DNA of 32,910 bases from a virus: IMG/VR virus record IMGVR_UViG_3300037193_002217, positions 1 to 32,910 of that record; one strand, given 5' to 3'. The notes under the pieces were generated by a model, which saw only the letters and a program-made list of their open reading frames with translations, was not told the DNA's origin and ran no database searches. Within the stretch, counting starts at the first letter, position 1; the number at the start of each line of letters is the position of its first letter. This document shows, piece by piece, positions 4,373 to 32,910 of the stretch. Position numbers and translations under genes: made by a program.

Positions 4373-4578
4373 AGATCGGAGCGACGGGGCGGTTCCCCGA
4401 AGGCAAGATCACGCCCGAGGACGAGGGAGAGCTGCAGCTCGCGATCGGCGCCAGCGGCAGCAACGTGGAGATTCACTTCGGCACGCCGGTTTCGTGGCTC
4501 GCTTTCCCGCCGTCGACGGCGCGCAGCCTGGCCGCGGGGCTCATCGCCGCGGCCGACCGCATCGAGCGCGGCCAGTGA
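4369..4578 (+). CDS. Small beta-rich hypothetical protein, 69 aa
   Basis: GTG 4369 is preceded by AGGAGGTG about seven bases upstream and overlaps the previous stop (GTGA). The product alternates strand-like segments (ELQLAIGASGSNVEIHFG) and ends in a helix (TARSLAAGLIAAADRIERG), a common layout for small phage alpha/beta proteins. Function unknown. Its stop again overlaps the following start. Confidence 0.6.
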   Translation: MKIGATGRFPEGKITPEDEGELQLAIGASGSNVEIHFGTPVSWLAFPPSTARSLAAGLIAAADRIERGQ

Positions 4579-4982
4579 CGGCGACTGAGCGCCGCCGCCG
4601 CCGCAAGCGGCGGGCGCGGCTCGCCCAGATGCGTGCGAGCGAGGGCTTCGGCGGGGGCTTCGGCGGGTACATCGAGAAGCGCGATGGCCGGGTGATCCCG
4701 GCGGCGAACATGCTCGACTGGGCCGTGTGGATGGGGCGCGCAGACCGCCGCGTGGCGCGCGACCAGGTCGAGGACATCATGGTGTCGACGGTGTTTCTCG
4801 GCCTGGACCACGGCAGCGGCTTTTCGCCTGTGCCGATCCTGTACGAGACGATGACCTGCGACTCCGCCGAGAAGTGGGGCGGCCCGTGGCGCTACGCGAC
4901 GCGCGCGGCAGCGCTCGAGGGTCACGCTCGCATTCTGGCGCTGGTCGAGTCGGGCGTGCCGCCCGAGGGGATCGAGGACTGA
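4575..4982 (+). CDS. Conserved phage protein, VSTVFLGLDH / FETM-type family
   Basis: GTG 4575 overlaps the previous TGA. After a basic, Gly-rich N-terminus, residues 69-120 carry VSTVFLGLDH, then LYETMTCD, then WRYATRAAALEGH. This order matches a widespread family of small uncharacterised phage proteins that I recall as VSTVFLGLDH...ETMVFGG...RYATWEEAEAGH. No biochemical role is established for that family to my knowledge. The gene is the last of the rightward run and is followed at once by the hairpin at 4990-5011. Confidence 0.75.
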   Translation: MTATERRRRRKRRARLAQMRASEGFGGGFGGYIEKRDGRVIPAANMLDWAVWMGRADRRVARDQVEDIMVSTVFLGLDHGSGFSPVPILYETMTCDSAEKWGGPWRYATRAAALEGHARILALVESGVPPEGIED

Positions 4983-5474: not shown

Positions 5475-6023
5475 ATGGCAGCTGCACGAAAGACGCGCGA
5501 CTGGAAGGCGCTCGAGCGGAAAGTGGTTCCCCCTGAAGGGTGGGAAGACTGGACGCCTACAGAGAAAAATCTCTTCCTGCTCGTGCGCGCCGTTTCCCCT
5601 CCGCTTGCGATCAAAGACATCGCCGACGAGCTCGATCTGTCGCTCTCCGAGACGGTGTCGATGCTCGACCGTCGCGAGATGCGGACGTCCGTTCCAGCTG
5701 CGCGAGTTCCAGTAGGGGAGTTCCTGAAACTCCTGGAGACGGCGTGCAAGCGCGTGCTCGTCGCGATGGACGCCGCGAAGATCGAGCAGGCCGATCTGAA
5801 GGGCCTTTCGGCCACGTTCCGCGACCTGATGAACACGCGCGCGCTCTTGCTCGGCGAGCCCACGCAGATCATCTCGTCCGATCACCGCCGTTCGATGGCT
5901 GACGCGCTGCAGGTGCTCGTCGCTGAGGCGACTCGCCGCGGAATCGCCATCCAAACGGACCAGCAGGGCGGCATCACCGTGCGGCGCCCCGTCACGATCG
6001 ACGCGCAAGGCCGGCCGGTATGA
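5475..6023 (+). CDS. Putative terminase small subunit
   Basis: The 182-residue product lies directly upstream of the large terminase and overlaps it by ATGA. Residues 44-66 (LAIKDIADELDLSLSETV) look like a helix-turn-helix, as expected for the DNA-recognition domain of small terminases. The middle (EFLKLLETACKRVL...DLKGLSATFRDLMNTRALL) is helical like their oligomerisation core. I choose ATG 5475; a TTG at 5469 is also in frame. There is no Shine-Dalgarno before either, though TTGACA lies at 5437-5442. The role is inferred from position and fold pattern; no specific family is recognised. Confidence 0.7.
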   Translation: MAAARKTRDWKALERKVVPPEGWEDWTPTEKNLFLLVRAVSPPLAIKDIADELDLSLSETVSMLDRREMRTSVPAARVPVGEFLKLLETACKRVLVAMDAAKIEQADLKGLSATFRDLMNTRALLLGEPTQIISSDHRRSMADALQVLVAEATRRGIAIQTDQQGGITVRRPVTIDAQGRPV

Positions 6024-7720
6024 ACACCGCCGACCTGCAGGCGATCACGCCGGAGCGGCTGCGCCGGCTCTCCGAGGACGAGCTGCGCGCGCTCGTGGTC
6101 GACGTCTCGGTCGCGCAGCAGATCGACCGCAAAGAGAACCAGCTTTACTACTACCGCCCCGCGTCGGACGGCGTGATCCCGATCCACCAGTCGCGCGGCC
6201 GCATCACCGGCATCGGCGGCGGTAACGGCTCGTCCAAGACGAGCAGCGCGCTCGTCGAGCTCGCCATACACGCAACCGGCGTCGTCCCCTTCGCGCTGCG
6301 CGGCGTGACCGACTGGTCCAAGAAGCTGCGCGGCCCGGTGCGCATCCGCGTGGTCTGCGAAAACCTCACGACGGTGCTCGGGCCGATCCTGCTCCCGATG
6401 CTCAAATGGAACCACTGGACCGGCGTCGATGCACCGGGAGGCGACCGCGGGCACTGGGGCTGGATCCCGCGCGATTGCCTGATCGATGGCGACTGGGATC
6501 GGTCCTGGACCGAGAAAAGCCGCATGCTGCGCACGCTCTACCGCCACCCGGAAAACCCGGACGAAGTGGTGGGCGAGTCGATCTGGGTCTTCAACTCCTA
6601 CGACCAGGATCCCAAGGACTTCGCGTCCGGCGACTACCACTTCGTGCTGCTCGACGAGCCGCCGCCGCTGCCGATCTTCAGGGAAAACCAGGCCAGAACC
6701 ATGAGAGTGAACGGCAGGATTCTCATGGCCATGACCTGGCCGGACGATCCGACGATCAATGTCGACTGGATCTTCGACGAGGTCTACGAGCCGGGCCGGC
6801 CCGGCCCCAAGCGCGACGAGACGATCGACTGGATCGAGATCAGCTCGCTCGAGAACCGCAACCTGATGACCGAAGCGGTCACCGCGCAGGCCGAGCGCTG
6901 GGACAAGCGCACGCGCGACGTGCGCATCCACGGCCGCCCGATCCGCTTCACGAACCGCGTGCACCCGCTCTTCTCCGAGGAGCAGGAGTTCTACTGCTTC
7001 GCGTGCGGCGACCGCGTGCTGGTCACGACTGCGGGCCGCTGCCGCCAGTGCGACGGCACCGACGTGGAGGCCTTCCAGCACGTCGAGGAGTTCGACCACT
7101 CGCCGAGCTGGCCGGTGATCTGGGTGGTGGATCCCCACCCCAGAAAGCCGCACATGAGCATCTACGTGGCGGTCACGCCAAGCAACGAACTCTGGCAGGT
7201 TGCCGAGCTGCAGGCGGCGGTGGATCCTTCCGCGTTGCGCGTGCAGTGCGACGAGCTCGAGCAGGAGCTGCAGCTCGACGTGCGGCTGCGGCTCATGGAC
7301 CCGCGCATGGGCGGCCAGCCCGCAGGCGCGAACCGCGAGCGAAACTGGCTCCAGGAGTTCGCCCACGCGGGGCTCCCGTGCGACCCGGCCGATCCCTCCG
7401 ACGTCGGCCGCGGCCTGCTCGACGAGTACCTGCGACCCGACTTCGACACGCGCCGCCCGCGCGCGCGCGTGCACGCACGCTGCCCCAACACGATCCAGCA
7501 GATGAAGCGCTTCATGTGGGACGACTGGCGCCACAACCTGGACAAGTCGCAGAAGCAGCGGCCCAAGGACAAGTGGGACGACTACCCGGCGTGCTGGCGC
7601 TACGTGATGAATGCGAAGCCCGATCACGAGGGTCTCACCTACGGACACCGCGTGCTGCGCGGCAGTCGGCGCGCCGCCCCCACGGGCAGCAAGCGCCGCC
7701 GCCGCGGGCGACGTCGGTAG
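6020..7720 (+). CDS. terL: Terminase large subunit
   Basis: This is the ATPase-nuclease motor that packages DNA into the prohead. Residues 64-75 (GIGGGNGSSKTS) form a Walker A loop; residues 208-213 (FVLLDE) are Walker B with Asp212 and catalytic Glu213; residues 235-240 (LMAMTW) fit the coupling motif. A C-terminal RNase H-like nuclease is marked by Asp371 (VIWVVDPH), Asp427 (LRLMDPR) and Asp520/521. Between ATPase and nuclease, Cys326, Cys329, Cys341 and Cys344 form a CxxC-x11-CxxC zinc-ribbon-like insert that I do not expect in most large terminases. The C-terminus is a basic tail (SKRRRRGRRR). Length 566 is normal. It overlaps the small subunit gene. Confidence 0.93.
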   Translation: MNTADLQAITPERLRRLSEDELRALVVDVSVAQQIDRKENQLYYYRPASDGVIPIHQSRGRITGIGGGNGSSKTSSALVELAIHATGVVPFALRGVTDWSKKLRGPVRIRVVCENLTTVLGPILLPMLKWNHWTGVDAPGGDRGHWGWIPRDCLIDGDWDRSWTEKSRMLRTLYRHPENPDEVVGESIWVFNSYDQDPKDFASGDYHFVLLDEPPPLPIFRENQARTMRVNGRILMAMTWPDDPTINVDWIFDEVYEPGRPGPKRDETIDWIEISSLENRNLMTEAVTAQAERWDKRTRDVRIHGRPIRFTNRVHPLFSEEQEFYCFACGDRVLVTTAGRCRQCDGTDVEAFQHVEEFDHSPSWPVIWVVDPHPRKPHMSIYVAVTPSNELWQVAELQAAVDPSALRVQCDELEQELQLDVRLRLMDPRMGGQPAGANRERNWLQEFAHAGLPCDPADPSDVGRGLLDEYLRPDFDTRRPRARVHARCPNTIQQMKRFMWDDWRHNLDKSQKQRPKDKWDDYPACWRYVMNAKPDHEGLTYGHRVLRGSRRAAPTGSKRRRRGRRR

Positions 7721-8030: not shown

Positions 8031-10460
8031 ATGGCCGCGCCTCTGCTGGTCGATCCCGTCCCCATCGACGAGGGCACGCTCTCCCCGGAGCAGCCGCTTC
8101 GCCGGACCCGCACCCGCCCCGACCCCCTCAAGCTCTCCGAGGACGAGCGGATCCGCGTGGTGAATCGGGTAAAGCGCTTCGCGAGTGAGGACGAAGAGGC
8201 GCGGCATCTCGACATCGAGCTGCGCGAGCAGCGCTACGCCAAGCTGATGCAATGGACCGAGGAGCGTGAAGGGCCCTGGGAAAACTGCACGAACGTGACG
8301 CTGCCGGACATCCTCACGGCCTGCCTGCGCACCGAGGACACGCTCACCAACGCGGTGCTCACCAGCCGCCCCATGGTGAACGCGCGCGCGCTGGACAACG
8401 CGAACTCCGAGAAGGAGCGCAAGATCGACCAGCTCCACGACACGCAGTTCTTCGTGGAGCAGGACGGCGAAGGCCTGCTCGAGGCCATGGTCTCCAACTT
8501 TGTCCGCGACGGGACCGCGCGCACCTACACGCGCTGGGTCACCGAGCACCGCGAGATTGTGCAGGTGGCCGACTTCGACCCGATCCCGCTGACTCAGATC
8601 CCGGTGCGCTACTTCCGGCGGCTGCTGGATTACCGCTTCCGGGTCGAGCCCGACAAGATCCGCCAGCTCGACGAGGAGGGGTGGGACTGGTCGGTGAAGA
8701 GCCTGGACGGCGACGACCTGGAGGTGCGCTTCTACACGCGCGAGAGCGACGAGCGCGTGGAGATGGAGATCCGCGGCGAGGTGACGGTCTTCGACGGGCC
8801 CTGCGTTCTCGTCGTGCCCTACGAGGGACTGCTGCACCCCTACTGGTGCCAGAACCTGCAGGCGCCCTCCGCGAGTAACCCGAACGGGGCCACGCACGTC
8901 ATTCTGGTCGACCGGCCGACGATCGACGAGGTGGGCCGCCTGATCGACGAGGGCGTCTACGATCTCATCACGCGCGCCGACCTGGAGCGCACCGTGCCCA
9001 CGGTCCCCTTCGACCAGCCGGAGGATCGACTCAGCCGGCAGAAGGACGAGATGCGCGGCTTCGCTTCGGGCCGCGTGGAGCCGCAGACCGAAGCGCGCAA
9101 CCACGCGCAGACGAAGCGCTACATCTGCTTCGACGTCTGGAGCCAGGACGGCCTGGGCAAGACGATGGACGTCGTCTGGACGGTGCTGCCCGAGCTCGAC
9201 CTGCTCGCGCGCGCCCGCCCCCTCTCCGAGATGGTGCCGGGCAACCCGCCTCGTCGCCCGTTCTCCGAGTCCGTCTTCGTGCCGGTGCAGGACCGCTGCA
9301 TCGGGATGGGCCTGCCCGAGATCATGGAGGGCTTGCACGACTTCAAGACCGAGGTTTTCAACGTGATGGGCGATGCGGCTGCGATCGAGATCCAGCCGTT
9401 CTTCACGTACCGGCCGGGCGGCTCGATCAACCCAGAGAAGTACGAGATTTTCCCGGGCGCTGGCCTGCCGCAGCAAAATCCGGGCGACGTCACCTTCGGC
9501 CGCGTGCAGCCCACCGCCACCGCGATCGCGATCAACGAGATCACTCTCGCCGACCAGATGGCGGAGAAACTCACAGCGATCGGTGACCTCCAATTCGGGC
9601 GCATTCCGACGGGCAAGAGCTCGGCGCTGCGCACGGCAGGAGGTGTGACGCAGCTGCTCGCGCAGGGCGAAGCGCGGCCGGAGCGCATCCTGCGGCGGCT
9701 TTTCCGCATGCTGCGCGACCTACACTCGCTCATGTACCAGCTGAATCGTACCTTCCTGGACGACAAAAAGCGCTTCCGCGTGATCGGCGTCGAGAGCCCG
9801 GAGAAGGACCCCTTCGTCTCGGTCGACAAGTATCAGGACCTGTCCGGGCAGTGCACGTTCGACTTCACCGCGAACGTGTTGAACACCTCGAAAGCCGCGC
9901 TGCAGCAGTCGCTCGGCGAGATCGTGACGCTGGTGCTCAACCCGCTGATGCTGCAGCTCGGCGTCGCCGACGCGGATGGCCTGTACCGGCTGCTGTGCGA
10001 CTACCTGCGCGCGCTGGGGCAGTCGCCGGAGAAGTACCTGCACGCGCCCTCGCCCGAGGCGCGGATGCCGCGGCTGCTCGCCTCCGAGGCGATGAGCTCG
10101 ATCCTGCGTGGCGAGTTCCCGGTCGGGATCCCGGCCGAGGAGAGCGCCGAGGAGCACCAGGCCGGCATGCAGGAGCTGCTCGCCCGCGAGGACGCCGAGG
10201 GAATCACGCTGCAGCAGACGCTGGAGCCGTACCACCTGCAGCTTCTCACGGGCTACATGCAGGCGCTCGGCCAGCGCGTGCAGATCGAGAAGGAGATGGA
10301 GCAGCGGCAGCAGCTCATGGAGCAGATGCGGCAGCAGCGGCAGTCCGAGCAGCAAGACAACCCGATGGCAAACGCCCGCCCGATGGGGGGAACGGGCTTC
10401 GTGCAAAGGAATGAGCCGATGGACGAAGGAATGCTTGCCGGGACCGGGACGCCAGCATGA
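8031..10460 (+). CDS. Portal protein
   Basis: ATG 8031 follows an AGGAG-like site (AAAAGGAGCC). At 809 residues this is in the size range of portals of short-tailed phages such as P22 gp1 and N4 gp59. The N-terminal third holds a segment (GPWENCTNVTLPDILTACLR) typical of such portals; the middle has mixed alpha/beta wing-like regions; the C-terminus from about residue 730 is a Gln/Glu-rich helix (EKEMEQRQQLMEQMRQQRQ) expected of a barrel or crown helix. The order terminase, portal, scaffold, capsid supports the assignment. It forms the dodecameric DNA channel at one vertex. Its stop overlaps the next start (ATGA). Confidence 0.88.
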   Translation: MAAPLLVDPVPIDEGTLSPEQPLRRTRTRPDPLKLSEDERIRVVNRVKRFASEDEEARHLDIELREQRYAKLMQWTEEREGPWENCTNVTLPDILTACLRTEDTLTNAVLTSRPMVNARALDNANSEKERKIDQLHDTQFFVEQDGEGLLEAMVSNFVRDGTARTYTRWVTEHREIVQVADFDPIPLTQIPVRYFRRLLDYRFRVEPDKIRQLDEEGWDWSVKSLDGDDLEVRFYTRESDERVEMEIRGEVTVFDGPCVLVVPYEGLLHPYWCQNLQAPSASNPNGATHVILVDRPTIDEVGRLIDEGVYDLITRADLERTVPTVPFDQPEDRLSRQKDEMRGFASGRVEPQTEARNHAQTKRYICFDVWSQDGLGKTMDVVWTVLPELDLLARARPLSEMVPGNPPRRPFSESVFVPVQDRCIGMGLPEIMEGLHDFKTEVFNVMGDAAAIEIQPFFTYRPGGSINPEKYEIFPGAGLPQQNPGDVTFGRVQPTATAIAINEITLADQMAEKLTAIGDLQFGRIPTGKSSALRTAGGVTQLLAQGEARPERILRRLFRMLRDLHSLMYQLNRTFLDDKKRFRVIGVESPEKDPFVSVDKYQDLSGQCTFDFTANVLNTSKAALQQSLGEIVTLVLNPLMLQLGVADADGLYRLLCDYLRALGQSPEKYLHAPSPEARMPRLLASEAMSSILRGEFPVGIPAEESAEEHQAGMQELLAREDAEGITLQQTLEPYHLQLLTGYMQALGQRVQIEKEMEQRQQLMEQMRQQRQSEQQDNPMANARPMGGTGFVQRNEPMDEGMLAGTGTPA

Positions 10461-13075: not shown

Positions 13076-13996
13076 ATGTCCAACGTTCCGGCGACAGGCG
13101 TTCACTTCGGTGATCTGCTGGATCCGCGCTTCCAAGAGATTTGGGACGCGGAGTACCCGCAGCACCAAGACATGATCTCGACGTTCTTCCGCGACGAGCC
13201 GACGAACGGGCGCGATGAGATGAAGTTCTCCTCGGTCGGCACCATGGTCGACTTCGAGGAGTGGACCGGCACTGTGCCGTACAATGCCCAGTTCCAGGGC
13301 TACGACACGCGGCTGATCCCGCTCGAGTACGCCAACGGCTTCCAGATCGAGCGCAAGCTCTACGACGACGACCAGTACCATGTGATGGATCAGAAGCCGC
13401 GCGGCCTTCGCGCGAGCGCGTTCCGCACGCGGCAGAAGCACGCAGCCCGCATCTTCAATCTGGCGTTCGTGAACGACCAGTATTTCTACGTGAACAGCGA
13501 AGGCGTGGCGCTGTGCAGTGACTCGCACACGACCACCTCCAACGCGCCGACGAACGCCGGCTTCGACAACCGGCTCACTGGCGCGCTCACGGCGACCGCG
13601 GTGGCGACCGCGCGCCGGCAGATGGTGCAGTTCCGCGGTGACCAGGCCGAGATCATCTCGGTGACGCCCGACACGCTGCTCTACCCGGTCGATCTGTACG
13701 AGCAGGCCTACGAGATCATCAGCAGCGCAGGCAAGCTCGACACCGCGAACAATAACCCGAACGTGCACCAGGGCCGGTACGAGGGCATCGAGTGGAACTA
13801 CCTCACCTCGCCGACCAATTGGTTCATGATCGACTCGGTGCTGATGAAGCAGTTCCTCGTGTGGACTGATCGCATCGAGCTCGAGTTCGGCTCGGCGGAA
13901 GAGTTCGATACCTATGTCGCGAAGTGGCGCGCGTACATGCGCTACGGCAACGCCTGGACCAACTGGCGCTGGATCATTGGGTCCGAGGTGAGCTGA
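13076..13996 (+). CDS. Major capsid protein, HK97 fold, Mu gpT-like
   Basis: ATG 13076 has AAGGAG about nine bases upstream, the strong site expected of the most abundant virion protein. The 306-residue length is close to Mu gpT (about 305). Typical features include DPRFQEIWDAEYPQ at the N-terminus, an E-loop/P-domain region with FEEWTGTVPYNAQFQGYD, a long helix with RTRQKHAARIFNLAFV, and the EGVALCSDSH motif seen in gpT-like proteins. A short GC hairpin (CGCCG-N5-CGGCG, 13043-13057) precedes the ribosome-binding site. It builds the icosahedral shell. Confidence 0.88.
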   Translation: MSNVPATGVHFGDLLDPRFQEIWDAEYPQHQDMISTFFRDEPTNGRDEMKFSSVGTMVDFEEWTGTVPYNAQFQGYDTRLIPLEYANGFQIERKLYDDDQYHVMDQKPRGLRASAFRTRQKHAARIFNLAFVNDQYFYVNSEGVALCSDSHTTTSNAPTNAGFDNRLTGALTATAVATARRQMVQFRGDQAEIISVTPDTLLYPVDLYEQAYEIISSAGKLDTANNNPNVHQGRYEGIEWNYLTSPTNWFMIDSVLMKQFLVWTDRIELEFGSAEEFDTYVAKWRAYMRYGNAWTNWRWIIGSEVS

Positions 13997-29030: not shown

Positions 29031-29312
29031 ATGACTGGAGCGCCACTCGGGCCTGCGGATGCGAAGGCTCTCATTCGCGAGGCCCTCGAGTGCGGCGAAT
29101 TCCGCTGGAGCCGGCATGCCCTGGAGGAGCTCGCGAAAGACGAGCTCGGCACGCCGGACGCCCTCAATGTCCTGCGCGCCGGCGTGGTGGAGCCGGCGGA
29201 GTGGGAGGGCGGCGAGTGGCGCTACCGGGTGCGCACGGCGCGGATGGTGGTGGTGATCGCCTTCGTCGAGGGCGGCCTGCGCATCGTGACGGCGTGGAGG
29301 ATCAGGCCATGA
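29031..29312 (+). CDS. DUF4258-type toxin (MqsR/RelE-like fold)
   Basis: ATG 29031 has no Shine-Dalgarno; see the promoter entry. The 93-residue protein matches the DUF4258 layout: FRWSRHALEELAKDEL (helix with Arg28-His29), GVVEPAEW, strands WRYRVRTARMVVVIAFVEG and a final LRIVTAWRIRP. Proteins of this type paired with a YgiT-type zinc finger/Xre antitoxin are MqsR-like toxins; MqsR cuts mRNA. Here the neighbour is exactly such an antitoxin. The ATGA overlap with it gives coupled translation. Toxicity of this protein is inferred, not shown. Confidence 0.8.
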   Translation: MTGAPLGPADAKALIREALECGEFRWSRHALEELAKDELGTPDALNVLRAGVVEPAEWEGGEWRYRVRTARMVVVIAFVEGGLRIVTAWRIRP

Positions 29313-29797
29313 AGTGCAACCAGTGCGGTGCGGCGCAGATGCGCGAGCAGGTGGAGACGGTGCGCTACGAGGGCTGCGGGCTCGACGGCATCCACCTCGA
29401 GAACGTGCGGGTCTGGCGCTGCCCGCAGTGCGGCGAGTGGGAGGTCGCGATCCCGCGGATCGAGAGCTTGCACCGCTCGATCGCGATGCACCTGGCGGAG
29501 CGCCCGGAGCGACTCGGTCCGAAGGAGGTCCGGTTCCTGCGCAAGTACCTCGGGCTCTCCAGCACGGACTTCGCCGCTCGGGTGGGCGTCGACAAGGCGA
29601 CGGTGTCGCGCTGGGAGAGAGTGGACGCGCCGATGGCGATGGGCCCGCAGATGGAGCGGCTGCTGCGGGTGCTCGTGCTGAGCGAGAAGCCCGTCGAGAG
29701 CTACCCGCTCAGCGCGATGGCCGCGCAGGAGGCGGCCGCGTCGGCGATGCGCTGGGCGCTCGACTCGCGTGGCTGGAGGCGTCAGGGCGCGGCGTGA
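29309..29797 (+). CDS. MqsA-like antitoxin with zinc finger and Xre HTH
   Basis: ATG 29309 overlaps the toxin stop (ATGA). The N-terminal domain has Cys3, Cys6, Cys38 and Cys41 (CNQC ... CPQC), the YgiT/MqsA-type zinc site that binds the toxin. The C-terminal half has an Xre helix-turn-helix at about residues 72-104 (EVRFLRKYLGLSSTDFAARV, then DKATVSRWER), matching MqsA. A 50-residue C-terminal extension beyond the HTH is longer than in E. coli MqsA. It would neutralise the toxin and bind the 28995-29013 palindrome. The gene ends convergent with, and overlapping by 16 bases, the leftward operon. Confidence 0.85.
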   Translation: MKCNQCGAAQMREQVETVRYEGCGLDGIHLENVRVWRCPQCGEWEVAIPRIESLHRSIAMHLAERPERLGPKEVRFLRKYLGLSSTDFAARVGVDKATVSRWERVDAPMAMGPQMERLLRVLVLSEKPVESYPLSAMAAQEAAASAMRWALDSRGWRRQGAA

Positions 29798-30304: not shown

Positions 30305-30781
30305 CTAGTTGGTGCTGCGGACAAGCGTGCGGCGAGCGGCCTCGGCGATGAGCAGCGCCGCCGCGCGCCCTGAATGCTTTGCCAGCGGCAGCTCCGCTTG
30401 CGGGAAGAGCTCCCGCGCGCGAGCGAGCGCGGCGGGCTCGCCCTTCTCCGCGCCGACGATGGCCTGCCAGTACTTGGGCGGCACCCGCTCGAGCGGGACG
30501 CCCAGGGCGACGGCCGCCATCTCCCAGAGCATCGCGGCGCGCCCGAGCCCGAGCGCTGTGTGCTTCGTGATCTTGGGCGTGACCTGCAGCCGCTCGACCA
30601 CGATCAGCTCGAGCCCCTCGCCCAGCGACCGCACCAGGTCCCAGCAGGCGCGCAGGTCGTATTCGCGGCGGTCGCCCTTGCCCGTGCGGTAGGCCGGCAT
30701 ATCCCACACGCCGCTCGCTGCGCCGGCGGGGGAGAGCAGCGCGAGGCCGCCCTTCAGGCCGGGGTCGATGCCGAGGATCAC
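30305..30781 (-). CDS. RuvC-like Holliday junction resolvase, degenerate C-terminal site
   Basis: I place the start at GTG 30781, overlapping the previous stop in GTGA; a GTG at 30796 is in frame too. The 158-residue product begins with ILGIDPGLKGGLALL, the first RuvC-fold strand with Asp6, and has IVVER with Glu63 as the second catalytic acid. The helix that normally carries two acidic residues reads KHSGRAAALLIAEA (135-148): the expected GRADAL/GRAEAL acid is Ala, and no Asp precedes it. Fold and size fit phage RuvC-like resolvases, but the missing acids may reduce or abolish cleavage. Confidence 0.8.
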   Translation of the reverse strand: MILGIDPGLKGGLALLSPAGAASGVWDMPAYRTGKGDRREYDLRACWDLVRSLGEGLELIVVERLQVTPKITKHTALGLGRAAMLWEMAAVALGVPLERVPPKYWQAIVGAEKGEPAALARARELFPQAELPLAKHSGRAAALLIAEAARRTLVRSTN

Positions 30782-30993
30782 CGCGCGTCGTCCCACAGGA
30801 TGCGCCCCTCGGCGTCGACCGGCAGCGGCTCGCGGCGCAGCGCCTCGTCGAAGCGCGCCTGATTCATGTCGAGCCAGCAGTCGTGCGGCCCGAACCAGAT
30901 GCGGATCCAGCCCTCGTTCGGCGAGCGCTCCACGCGCAGGTAGGGCCCCACCAGCTCGGTGATGCGCTTGGAGGTCGCCTCGGCGGGTGTCAC
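30778..30993 (-). CDS. Small hypothetical protein, 71 aa
   Basis: GTG 30993 overlaps the previous stop by four bases (GTGA). The product (VTPAEATSKRITELVGPYLR) has a helical N-terminus and a beta segment (EGWIRIWFGPHDCWLDM), then a charged end that reads LPVDAEGRILWDDAR. It fits between replication genes in the leftward operon and overlaps the resolvase start. Function unrecognised. Confidence 0.65.
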   Translation of the reverse strand: MTPAEATSKRITELVGPYLRVERSPNEGWIRIWFGPHDCWLDMNQARFDEALRREPLPVDAEGRILWDDAR

Positions 30994-31394
30994 GCGCGCT
31001 CCGCGAGCTGCAGCGGCGGGGGAGGGGCGCTCGCGCGCTCGCCCGGCCCCAGCGCGAAGGCGGCGTGCGCCCACGGCTGCCCCGGGCGCGGGCCCGCGCG
31101 CAGGTACTTCTCCGCGTCGATCTCGACCGGCGGGCACACCGGGTTGTAGTCGGTGACCTCGCGCCCCTCGCTGCGCGCGCGCGCCTCCCGCAGCACCTTC
31201 GCGCACTCGCGGCGGATCTCGTAGATCACCGGCAAAAAGTCGCCCTTGCGCGTGAACACCAGCCGGCGGAAGGCGTGGCCCAGCACTGTCGTGTGTATGT
31301 CGGCCAAGGCCGCGCGATAGGAGTGCATCTTGAACTTCTGCCCCTCCTTCGTCGGGCTCACCGGCGGGTAGTAGCTGAAGAAGCGCCCGAGCAT
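30990..31394 (-). CDS. Putative replication-associated / helicase-loader-like protein
   Basis: The clear start is ATG 31394, 25 bases after the preceding stop; an upstream in-frame ATG would overlap the previous gene by over 120 bases. The 134-residue product opens MLGRFFSYYPPVSPTKEGQK and continues with a SYRAALADIHTTVLGHAFRR segment, then TRKGDFLPVIYEIRREC. This pattern (FxxYYP, a YxxAL-x-D helix, a (K/R)xxFxPxxxEIR end) is shared with short phage replication proteins that act as helicase loaders. It then has a Pro/Ala-rich tail. Gene order (repressor, initiator, loader) supports the call. Confidence 0.6.
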   Translation of the reverse strand: MLGRFFSYYPPVSPTKEGQKFKMHSYRAALADIHTTVLGHAFRRLVFTRKGDFLPVIYEIRRECAKVLREARARSEGREVTDYNPVCPPVEIDAEKYLRAGPRPGQPWAHAAFALGPGERASAPPPPLQLAERA

Positions 31395-31419
31395 CGCCCA
31401 GCGCTGCTCGTCGTCCGCC

Positions 31420-31782
31420 CTAGTCGAACAGCTCGGGGAAGAGGCCGAGCTCGCGGGCGCCGTCGCGCATGGCTTCGACGAGCCCGCCGCGGCCTCCTCC
31501 GCCACGCCCTTGAGGTGTCGTGCGAGCGAATCCATTCCCCCCTCCACCCGTCCTGCGCCGCCACAGGCGCTCGTTTCGGATCCAGGTCCGGCAGGCGGCC
31601 ACCCAGTCCGCCATCTCGTTGCCCACGGCCCTGTGGTGATCGAGGCAGGCCTCCACGAGGTCGCTCAGGCTCATCGCCGCCCACGGCTCCCGCTCGCGCG
31701 CCCAGCGGTCCAGCGCCGCCCACTGCTCCGGGGAGAGATCGTCGGGGGTCTCGGTGCACGGGCGACGACGGCGGCGACTCAC
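31420..31782 (-). CDS. Phage replication initiator-like protein
   Basis: GTG 31782 overlaps the repressor stop by GTGA. The product has a basic N-terminus (VSRRRRRPCTETPDDLSPEQ). Residues 40-70 (SDLVEACLDHHRAVGNEMAD, then WVAACRTWIRNERLW) match the CLDxHRAxGxxxADWxAxxRTWxRNxRR motif seen at the C-terminus of many phage replisome organisers. The remainder is Gly/Arg-rich. At 120 residues it lacks the larger N-terminal winged-helix domain of some homologues, so it may be a split or minimal initiator. Confidence 0.7.
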   Translation of the reverse strand: MSRRRRRPCTETPDDLSPEQWAALDRWAREREPWAAMSLSDLVEACLDHHRAVGNEMADWVAACRTWIRNERLWRRRTGGGGNGFARTTPQGRGGGGRGGLVEAMRDGARELGLFPELFD

Positions 31783-32150
31783 TGCGCGCTGGCCTCCTGC
31801 GGTGGCTGGGGTTGCTCCGGCTGCTGGCGCGGGCGGCCTCGCGGGCGCGGCGTCGGGGCGGGCTCCACCCGTGAGGAGGGATCCGCCCCCGCGAGCGCGC
31901 GGATGATGATCCGCTGAGGCGGGTGTGCGAGGTCCCAGATGGGAATCCCGGACAGCTCGTGGATGCGGATCAGGCGCTCCAAGGGGAGCGGCAGCACGCC
32001 GTTCTCGTACTTCGTGATGCTGCTCTGGTCCCGCAGGCCGAGTATCGTTGCCAGGTCGCGGCGAGAAACGCCGGTAGCCTTGCGCCAGGCCTTCAGTCTG
32101 ACCGGGCCGCGCAGTGCGCCCTGATGGACACTCGCAAGTTTCGCCGCCAC
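31779..32150 (-). CDS. Xre-type repressor with AT-hook-like tail
   Basis: Start is GTG 32150; upstream in-frame sequence crosses the promoter and is not used. The 123-residue product carries an Xre HTH at about residues 18-60 (KAWRKATGVSRRDLATILGL, then DQSSITKYENGVLPLPLERL), with a following helix (IRIHELSGIPIWDL). The tail (PRPRGRPRQQ) has an AT-hook-like RGRP core and is Pro/Gln-rich. It leads the leftward replication operon and faces the divergent gene at 32265. It probably binds the palindromes in the shared intergenic region and may control the lytic-lysogenic choice. There is no cleavage/LexA-type domain. Confidence 0.8.
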   Translation of the reverse strand: MAAKLASVHQGALRGPVRLKAWRKATGVSRRDLATILGLRDQSSITKYENGVLPLPLERLIRIHELSGIPIWDLAHPPQRIIIRALAGADPSSRVEPAPTPRPRGRPRQQPEQPQPPQEASAQ

Positions 32151-32157
32151 ACCGGCA

Positions 32158-32188
32158 AAAATAGTGTGCTTGCATTTCTCATTGCAAG
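32158..32188 (-). promoter_or_regulatory. Leftward repressor promoter with palindromic operator
   Basis: On the minus strand TTGCAA (32187-32182), an 18-base spacer and TATTTT (32163-32158) form a promoter; seven bases follow before GTG 32150, so the transcript would start at the codon itself. CTTGCA (32169-32174) and TGCAAG (32183-32188) form an 8-base-spaced inverted repeat across the -35 and spacer, a good operator for autoregulation. The arrangement recalls lambda PRM, whose cI mRNA is leaderless. Confidence 0.7.
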
Positions 32189-32228
32189 CCCCGCTTTGTA
32201 GGTGCCGGACGGCACTATGGAAATCCGA

Positions 32229-32257
32229 TTGAGCGGGAAATTTTTTCCCGTTATGCT
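32229..32257 (+). promoter_or_regulatory. Rightward promoter with palindrome in the spacer
   Basis: TTGAGC (32229-32234), a 17-base spacer and TATGCT (32252-32257), followed by seven bases and ATG 32265: the transcript would be leaderless. CGGGAAA (32234-32240), TTT, TTTCCCG (32244-32250) is a perfect 7-bp inverted repeat that fills the spacer, where a bound repressor would block RNA polymerase. A further inverted repeat GTGCC-GGAC-GGCAC lies at 32202-32215 between the two promoters. Confidence 0.7.
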
Positions 32258-32264
32258 TCGGGGC

Positions 32265-32910
<646 letters not shown>

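Follow-up and report, generated by a model that had tools for sequence, protein, structure and literature searches.

A putative divergent early-control region with probable leaderless starts and a conserved candidate operator in an uncultured phage lineage

The window analyzed here is an entire IMG/VR virus record of 32,910 bases, derived from a contig that is itself partial. A terminase-like gene (6020–7720), a portal gene (8031–10460) and a head protease gene (13076–13996) run rightward and are followed by more structural genes, while an operon on the (−) strand runs leftward from 32150 to 29782. Across a gap of 114 nt, which has a GC content of 51% against 69% for the whole record, a second gene, P0002, is read in the opposite direction. 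The phage is probably a temperate tailed phage; the window, which comes from a partial contig and lacks the region that carries integrase in the related phage G001 described below, yielded no integrase. Two other features were observed in passing. A DUF4258-like protein encoded at 29031–29312 (+; 22.8 bits, below the cut-off of 25) and an MqsA-like antitoxin with a zinc ribbon and HTH at 29309–29797 (+; 30.0 bits, at the cut-off) overlap by 4 nt and form a possible toxin–antitoxin pair. Perfect inverted repeats are densely clustered at 4501–4700 (four with arms of at least 7 in 114 nt), in GC-rich and probably coding sequence.

The first gene of the leftward operon (P0001, 31779–32150, −) encodes an Xre-family HTH protein of 123 amino acids, which matched Pfam HTH_31 (3.7e-7, 30.8 bits, cut-off 27) and HTH_3 (2.6e-6, 27.8 bits, cut-off 23). 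Its PHROG matches were repressors, and its predicted fold was nearest, if weakly, to SinR, HigA, HipB and 434 Cro. The HTH was the only part matched, and the C-terminal peptidase or dimerization domain of repressors is absent. The GTG at 32150 is the sole nearby start codon: the frame is open upstream without a near ATG, GTG or TTG, and downstream there is no start codon ahead of the HTH. The Xre gene overlaps the second leftward gene (31420–31782, −) by 4 nt. The product of this second gene is similar to the C-terminal portion of phage primosome/replication-initiation proteins, including a remote similarity to that part of the DUF1376/replication-initiation proteins in L032 and L031. The third gene (30990–31547, −) had no PHROG or Pfam family match and is presumed to be helicase-loader-like from its position. 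A RuvC-like Holliday junction resolvase (30305–30796, −; phrog_1770, 5e-22) is encoded in the same operon.

The most unusual part of the region is the orphan protein encoded by P0002 (32265–32702, +), which heads the rightward operon. Its last few codons are lost in a tail of poly-C, poly-G and poly-A runs (32703–32910), probably an artefact of sequencing or assembly. No family, plasmid, phage or fold match was obtained for P0002, and when phages, plasmids and viral contigs were searched, its counterpart in G001 was the only match. No HTH was detected by Pfam (even at E 10), PHROGs or fold; the AlphaFold model had a mean pLDDT of only 57, and Foldseek gave no usable match. Compared as profiles, P0002 and Xre gave an E value of 0.049 and a probability of 1%, which did not support the idea that P0002 might be a degenerate Xre domain. 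The P0002 start appears uncertain by four codons, between 32265 and 32253, where an in-frame ATG lies inside the −10 element; this alternative start lacks an SD sequence and is also present in G001.

G001 (IMGVR_UViG_3300024323_000010, 48,853 bases) was reached through a portal search and was the sole relative found with both the Xre and P0002 genes. It is collinear with the window across the structural genes (up to 82% identity) and the leftward operon, and its orthologs stand in the same divergent order: Xre is 39% identical, P0002 46%, the second leftward gene 64% and the third, at the same place, 32%, and RuvC is present as well. Xre heads the replication/RuvC operon in both phages, and in each its gene shares 4 nt with the second gene (GTGA in the window, ATGA in G001). 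To the right, G001 carries P0002, a small gene, exonuclease VIII and RecT, with a tyrosine integrase farther on. Six further records that had only the terminase in common with the window (G003–G008) carried neither the Xre nor the P0002 gene. A DNA search of the control region against the phage collection gave no match, and genome contigs searched with P0002 and with the portal yielded no relative. The lineage is an uncultured one, with no cultured member found here.

A sequence-only reading of the window had proposed divergent promoters ending 7 nt before each start codon, with no ribosome-binding site at either start, and these elements are all found where it placed them. The probable P0002 promoter, TTGAGC-N17-TATGCT (32229–32257, +), has its −35 at 32229–32234 and its −10 at 32252–32257, 7 nt before the ATG at 32265. 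The possible Xre promoter, TTGCAA-N18-TATTTT (32158–32187, −), has its −35 at 32187–32182 and its −10 at 32163–32158, again 7 nt before the GTG at 32150. Each matches the consensus at only 8/12 positions, which is weak, and a stock promoter scan with a threshold of 9 found neither. Some promoter with 4/6 matches in each hexamer occurred anywhere in the gap in about 29% of shuffles; with the −10 ending 4–9 nt before the start, such promoters occurred in 2.3% (right) and 2.2% (left). The P0002 −10 and its 7-nt spacing are kept in G001 (TATGAT), while the −35 is not. The Xre-side promoter was not seen in G001, where no −10 precedes the GTG, though the SD-less GTG itself is retained.

The absence of SD sequences was assessed from anti-SD energies, for which the background median was −3.1 and many other genes of the window phage gave −7 to −11. 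The two starts in the window gave +1.7 (Xre) and −2.2 kcal/mol (P0002), and the corresponding pair in G001 gave −1.1 and −2.4. Thus, both starts lack an SD sequence in both phages, whereas many other genes of both carry one. In bacteria, high-GC groups among them, leaderless genes are marked by TANNNT some 12 bp ahead of the start, a motif whose three central bases are poorly informative in the high-GC groups (PMC3160421). The motif is present at this distance as TATTTT (Xre) and TATGCT (P0002) in the window and as TATGAT before P0002 in G001, with none before the G001 Xre gene. As a leaderless start, GUG performs poorly in E. coli but is functional in some actinobacteria (PMC9031893). On these sequence features, the P0002 transcript is probably leaderless. 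The leaderless reading, and with it that of a switch, is strongest for P0002, since the orthologous region of G001 repeats the dyad, the −10 and its 7-nt spacing. It is weaker for Xre, since the G001 counterpart keeps an SD-less GTG without a −10.

Three perfect inverted repeats had also been proposed for the gap. They are present as placed, but two have slightly longer arms than originally described: the Xre-side dyad is GCTTGCA-N8-TGCAAGC (7-N8-7, 32168–32189), overlapping the possible Xre promoter, and the middle dyad is GTGCCG-GA-CGGCAC (6-N2-6 rather than 5-N4-5, 32202–32215), between the promoters. The P0002-side dyad, CGGGAAA-TTT-TTTCCCG (7-N3-7, 32234–32250), lies in the −35/−10 spacer and is a probable operator, with a core of GAAA-N3-TTTC at 32237–32247. 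Dinucleotide shuffling of the gap gave three perfect dyads with arms of at least 6 in 0.17% of cases, but as many were found in 2.5% of the 114-nt windows across the GC-rich record. Taken alone, the pattern of dyads and promoters is suggestive, no more. Neither the Xre-side nor the middle dyad has a second perfect copy in the window or a sequence counterpart in G001, the middle of whose gap holds a different dyad, GTCCACG-N4-CGTGGAC (7-N4-7), at a similar position. The 32168–32189 dyad scores as a terminator-like hairpin; an Rfam search of the window matched no RNA element.

Alignment of the gap between the window and G001, the two sequences from which conservation was judged, gave one clear block, GAAAnnnTTTC-n(3 or 1)-TTATGnTTnGGnnCATG, comprising the dyad, the −10, the 7-nt spacing and the ATG. 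Outside this P0002-side block the gaps diverge. GAAA-N3-TTTC is the only dyad with 4-bp arms common to both gaps, which together hold three copies. Among pairs of shuffled sequences, 0.04% had a shared dyad with at least three copies and 0.12% a shared dyad whose distance to the start matched; none of the 5000 combined the two. The whole window has a single copy, at the P0002 promoter (0.05 expected), and none on the Xre side of the gap. G001 has three in 48.9 kb: two in the gap, of which the Xre-side copy ends 15 nt upstream of the Xre GTG, and one before a third operon (L013:4429–4520, G001 about 34430–34520), about 23 nt before an SD-bearing gene. This third site lies immediately downstream of a promoter-like TTGACG-N17-CATCCT pair; the next gene (MKIEEMV...) has no assigned function. 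No copy was present in the stretches of G003–G008 that were read. Such a distribution is as expected for the operator of one early regulator.

We consider it fairly likely that the region is an early-control (immunity-type) region of the lambda/PY54 type, with one operator that is probably read by Xre and with probable leaderless starts. Two operons would diverge from the 114-nt gap: a leftward replication operon (Xre, primosome-like, loader-like and RuvC genes) and a rightward arm that begins with P0002 and leads, in G001, to the recombination genes for exonuclease VIII and RecT, which may share a transcript with P0002. A dimeric regulator, most likely Xre, would bind GAAA-N3-TTTC between the −35 and −10 of the P0002 promoter and thereby block this promoter. 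In G001, the regulator would have further binding sites at the Xre start and ahead of the third operon, so that it would tune its own operon and keep the remaining early operons silent. The P0002 transcript, and probably the Xre transcript, would begin at the start codon, making both mRNAs leaderless. Xre is favored as the binder because it is the only recognized DNA-binding protein encoded beside the gap in both phages; P0002 could be an alternative binder of the same core. The earlier description of the region as a compact switch thus appears sound for a divergent regulatory region with probable leaderless starts, best supported for P0002, and less so for the Xre side.

The evidence leaves some room for other assignments of the roles. 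The Xre gene overlaps the primosome-like gene and heads the replication operon, and is therefore Cro-like by position, making the label "repressor" questionable; heading a replication operon is unusual for a lysogenic repressor and counts against the explanation that we favor. Conceivably, then, P0002 reads GAAA-N3-TTTC and is the true repressor, in the role of CI, and Xre serves the lytic replication operon as its Cro-like protein. P0002 and Xre diverge from each other as cI and cro do, and the end of the P0002 sequence, by eye, recalls the final helices of an Xre domain. We regard this as unlikely, given that neither the domain, profile nor fold searches described above detected an HTH in P0002 and that the exonuclease and RecT genes downstream of P0002 in G001 serve lytic functions. 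More doubtful still is the proposal that P0002 is the first member of a new phage regulator family whose DNA-binding fold has escaped detection, and that this lineage makes its lysis–lysogeny decision through two leaderless, operator-bearing promoters without any CI-type repressor. Equally improbable is the original suggestion that Xre is the lysogenic repressor and shares the reading of three different operators with a second factor. The window gap does hold three distinct dyads, with each promoter overlapping one, and neither of the phage phi11 repressors binds the full set of three cI–cro operators (PMC3991615). Against this, two of the dyads are not conserved in sequence in G001, as many dyads are seen in 2.5% of the 114-nt windows of this GC-rich record, and GAAA-N3-TTTC is the only one common to both phages. 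Its presence at both divergent starts of G001 and before the third operon points to one factor and one core, and distinct operators for distinct factors, although conceivable for the window taken alone, are not supported by the G001 comparison.

The transcripts might also not be leaderless at all: the promoters could lie farther upstream, with the −10 matches arising by chance, translation proceeding independently of SD on a short leader, and the dyads acting as RNA hairpins. The weak consensus matches, the frequency with which some promoter of this quality arises in shuffled gaps, the terminator-like score of the Xre-side dyad and the in-frame ATG at 32253 are all compatible with such a scheme. 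It is nevertheless an unlikely one in our estimation, since TATGnT recurs with the exact 7-nt spacing at the orthologous site in G001, and a promoter matched in position arises in only about 2% of shuffles per side.

The early-control reading can be compared with several known systems. In the OR region of lambda, cI (from PRM) and cro (from PR) are transcribed divergently, an operator lies inside the promoter, and replication genes belong to the cro operon. The present region shares the divergent transcription, the operator within a promoter and the cro-operon-like replication genes. It differs in that no CI with an autoproteolytic domain was seen, the window has no three homologous operators, and the divergent arm leads to exonuclease and RecT genes in G001. 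Lambdoid CI/Cro regions are recognized by two divergent genes with at least one HTH regulator, here Xre. The likeness may extend to the leaderless cI mRNA of lambda, a case echoed in PMC4488713 and PMC9031893. The closest precedent is the immB cI/cro region of the N15-like phage PY54, for which a divergent switch with a palindromic operator in the gap, leaderless mRNAs for both cI and cro, and a cro promoter still active with the −10 alone are already published (PMC4488713). PY54 has identified CI and Cro proteins and leaderless AUG starts, whereas this region has the orphan P0002 and a GTG start for Xre, and its leaderless mRNAs are predicted; the likeness seen is one of arrangement. The region also resembles the TA-led leaderless genes of high-GC bacteria, with TANNNT about 12 bp before an SD-less start (PMC3160421), which are a sequence class rather than a regulatory system. 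Finally, the phi11 cI–cro region of S. aureus likewise has several palindromes between divergent regulators (P0002 being a putative one here), but its three operators are homologous and the three dyads here are not (PMC3991615).

With PY54 and phi11 as precedents, the region belongs to a known kind, found here in an uncultured lineage. It provides a concrete candidate operator, GAAA-N3-TTTC, and a candidate regulon for a phage lineage that comes from metagenomes, and is probably a further PY54-like example of a phage switch with divergent genes that may be leaderless on both sides. Should the switch proteins depend on leaderless initiation for their translation, host conditions under which 70S initiation changes could act directly on the decision.
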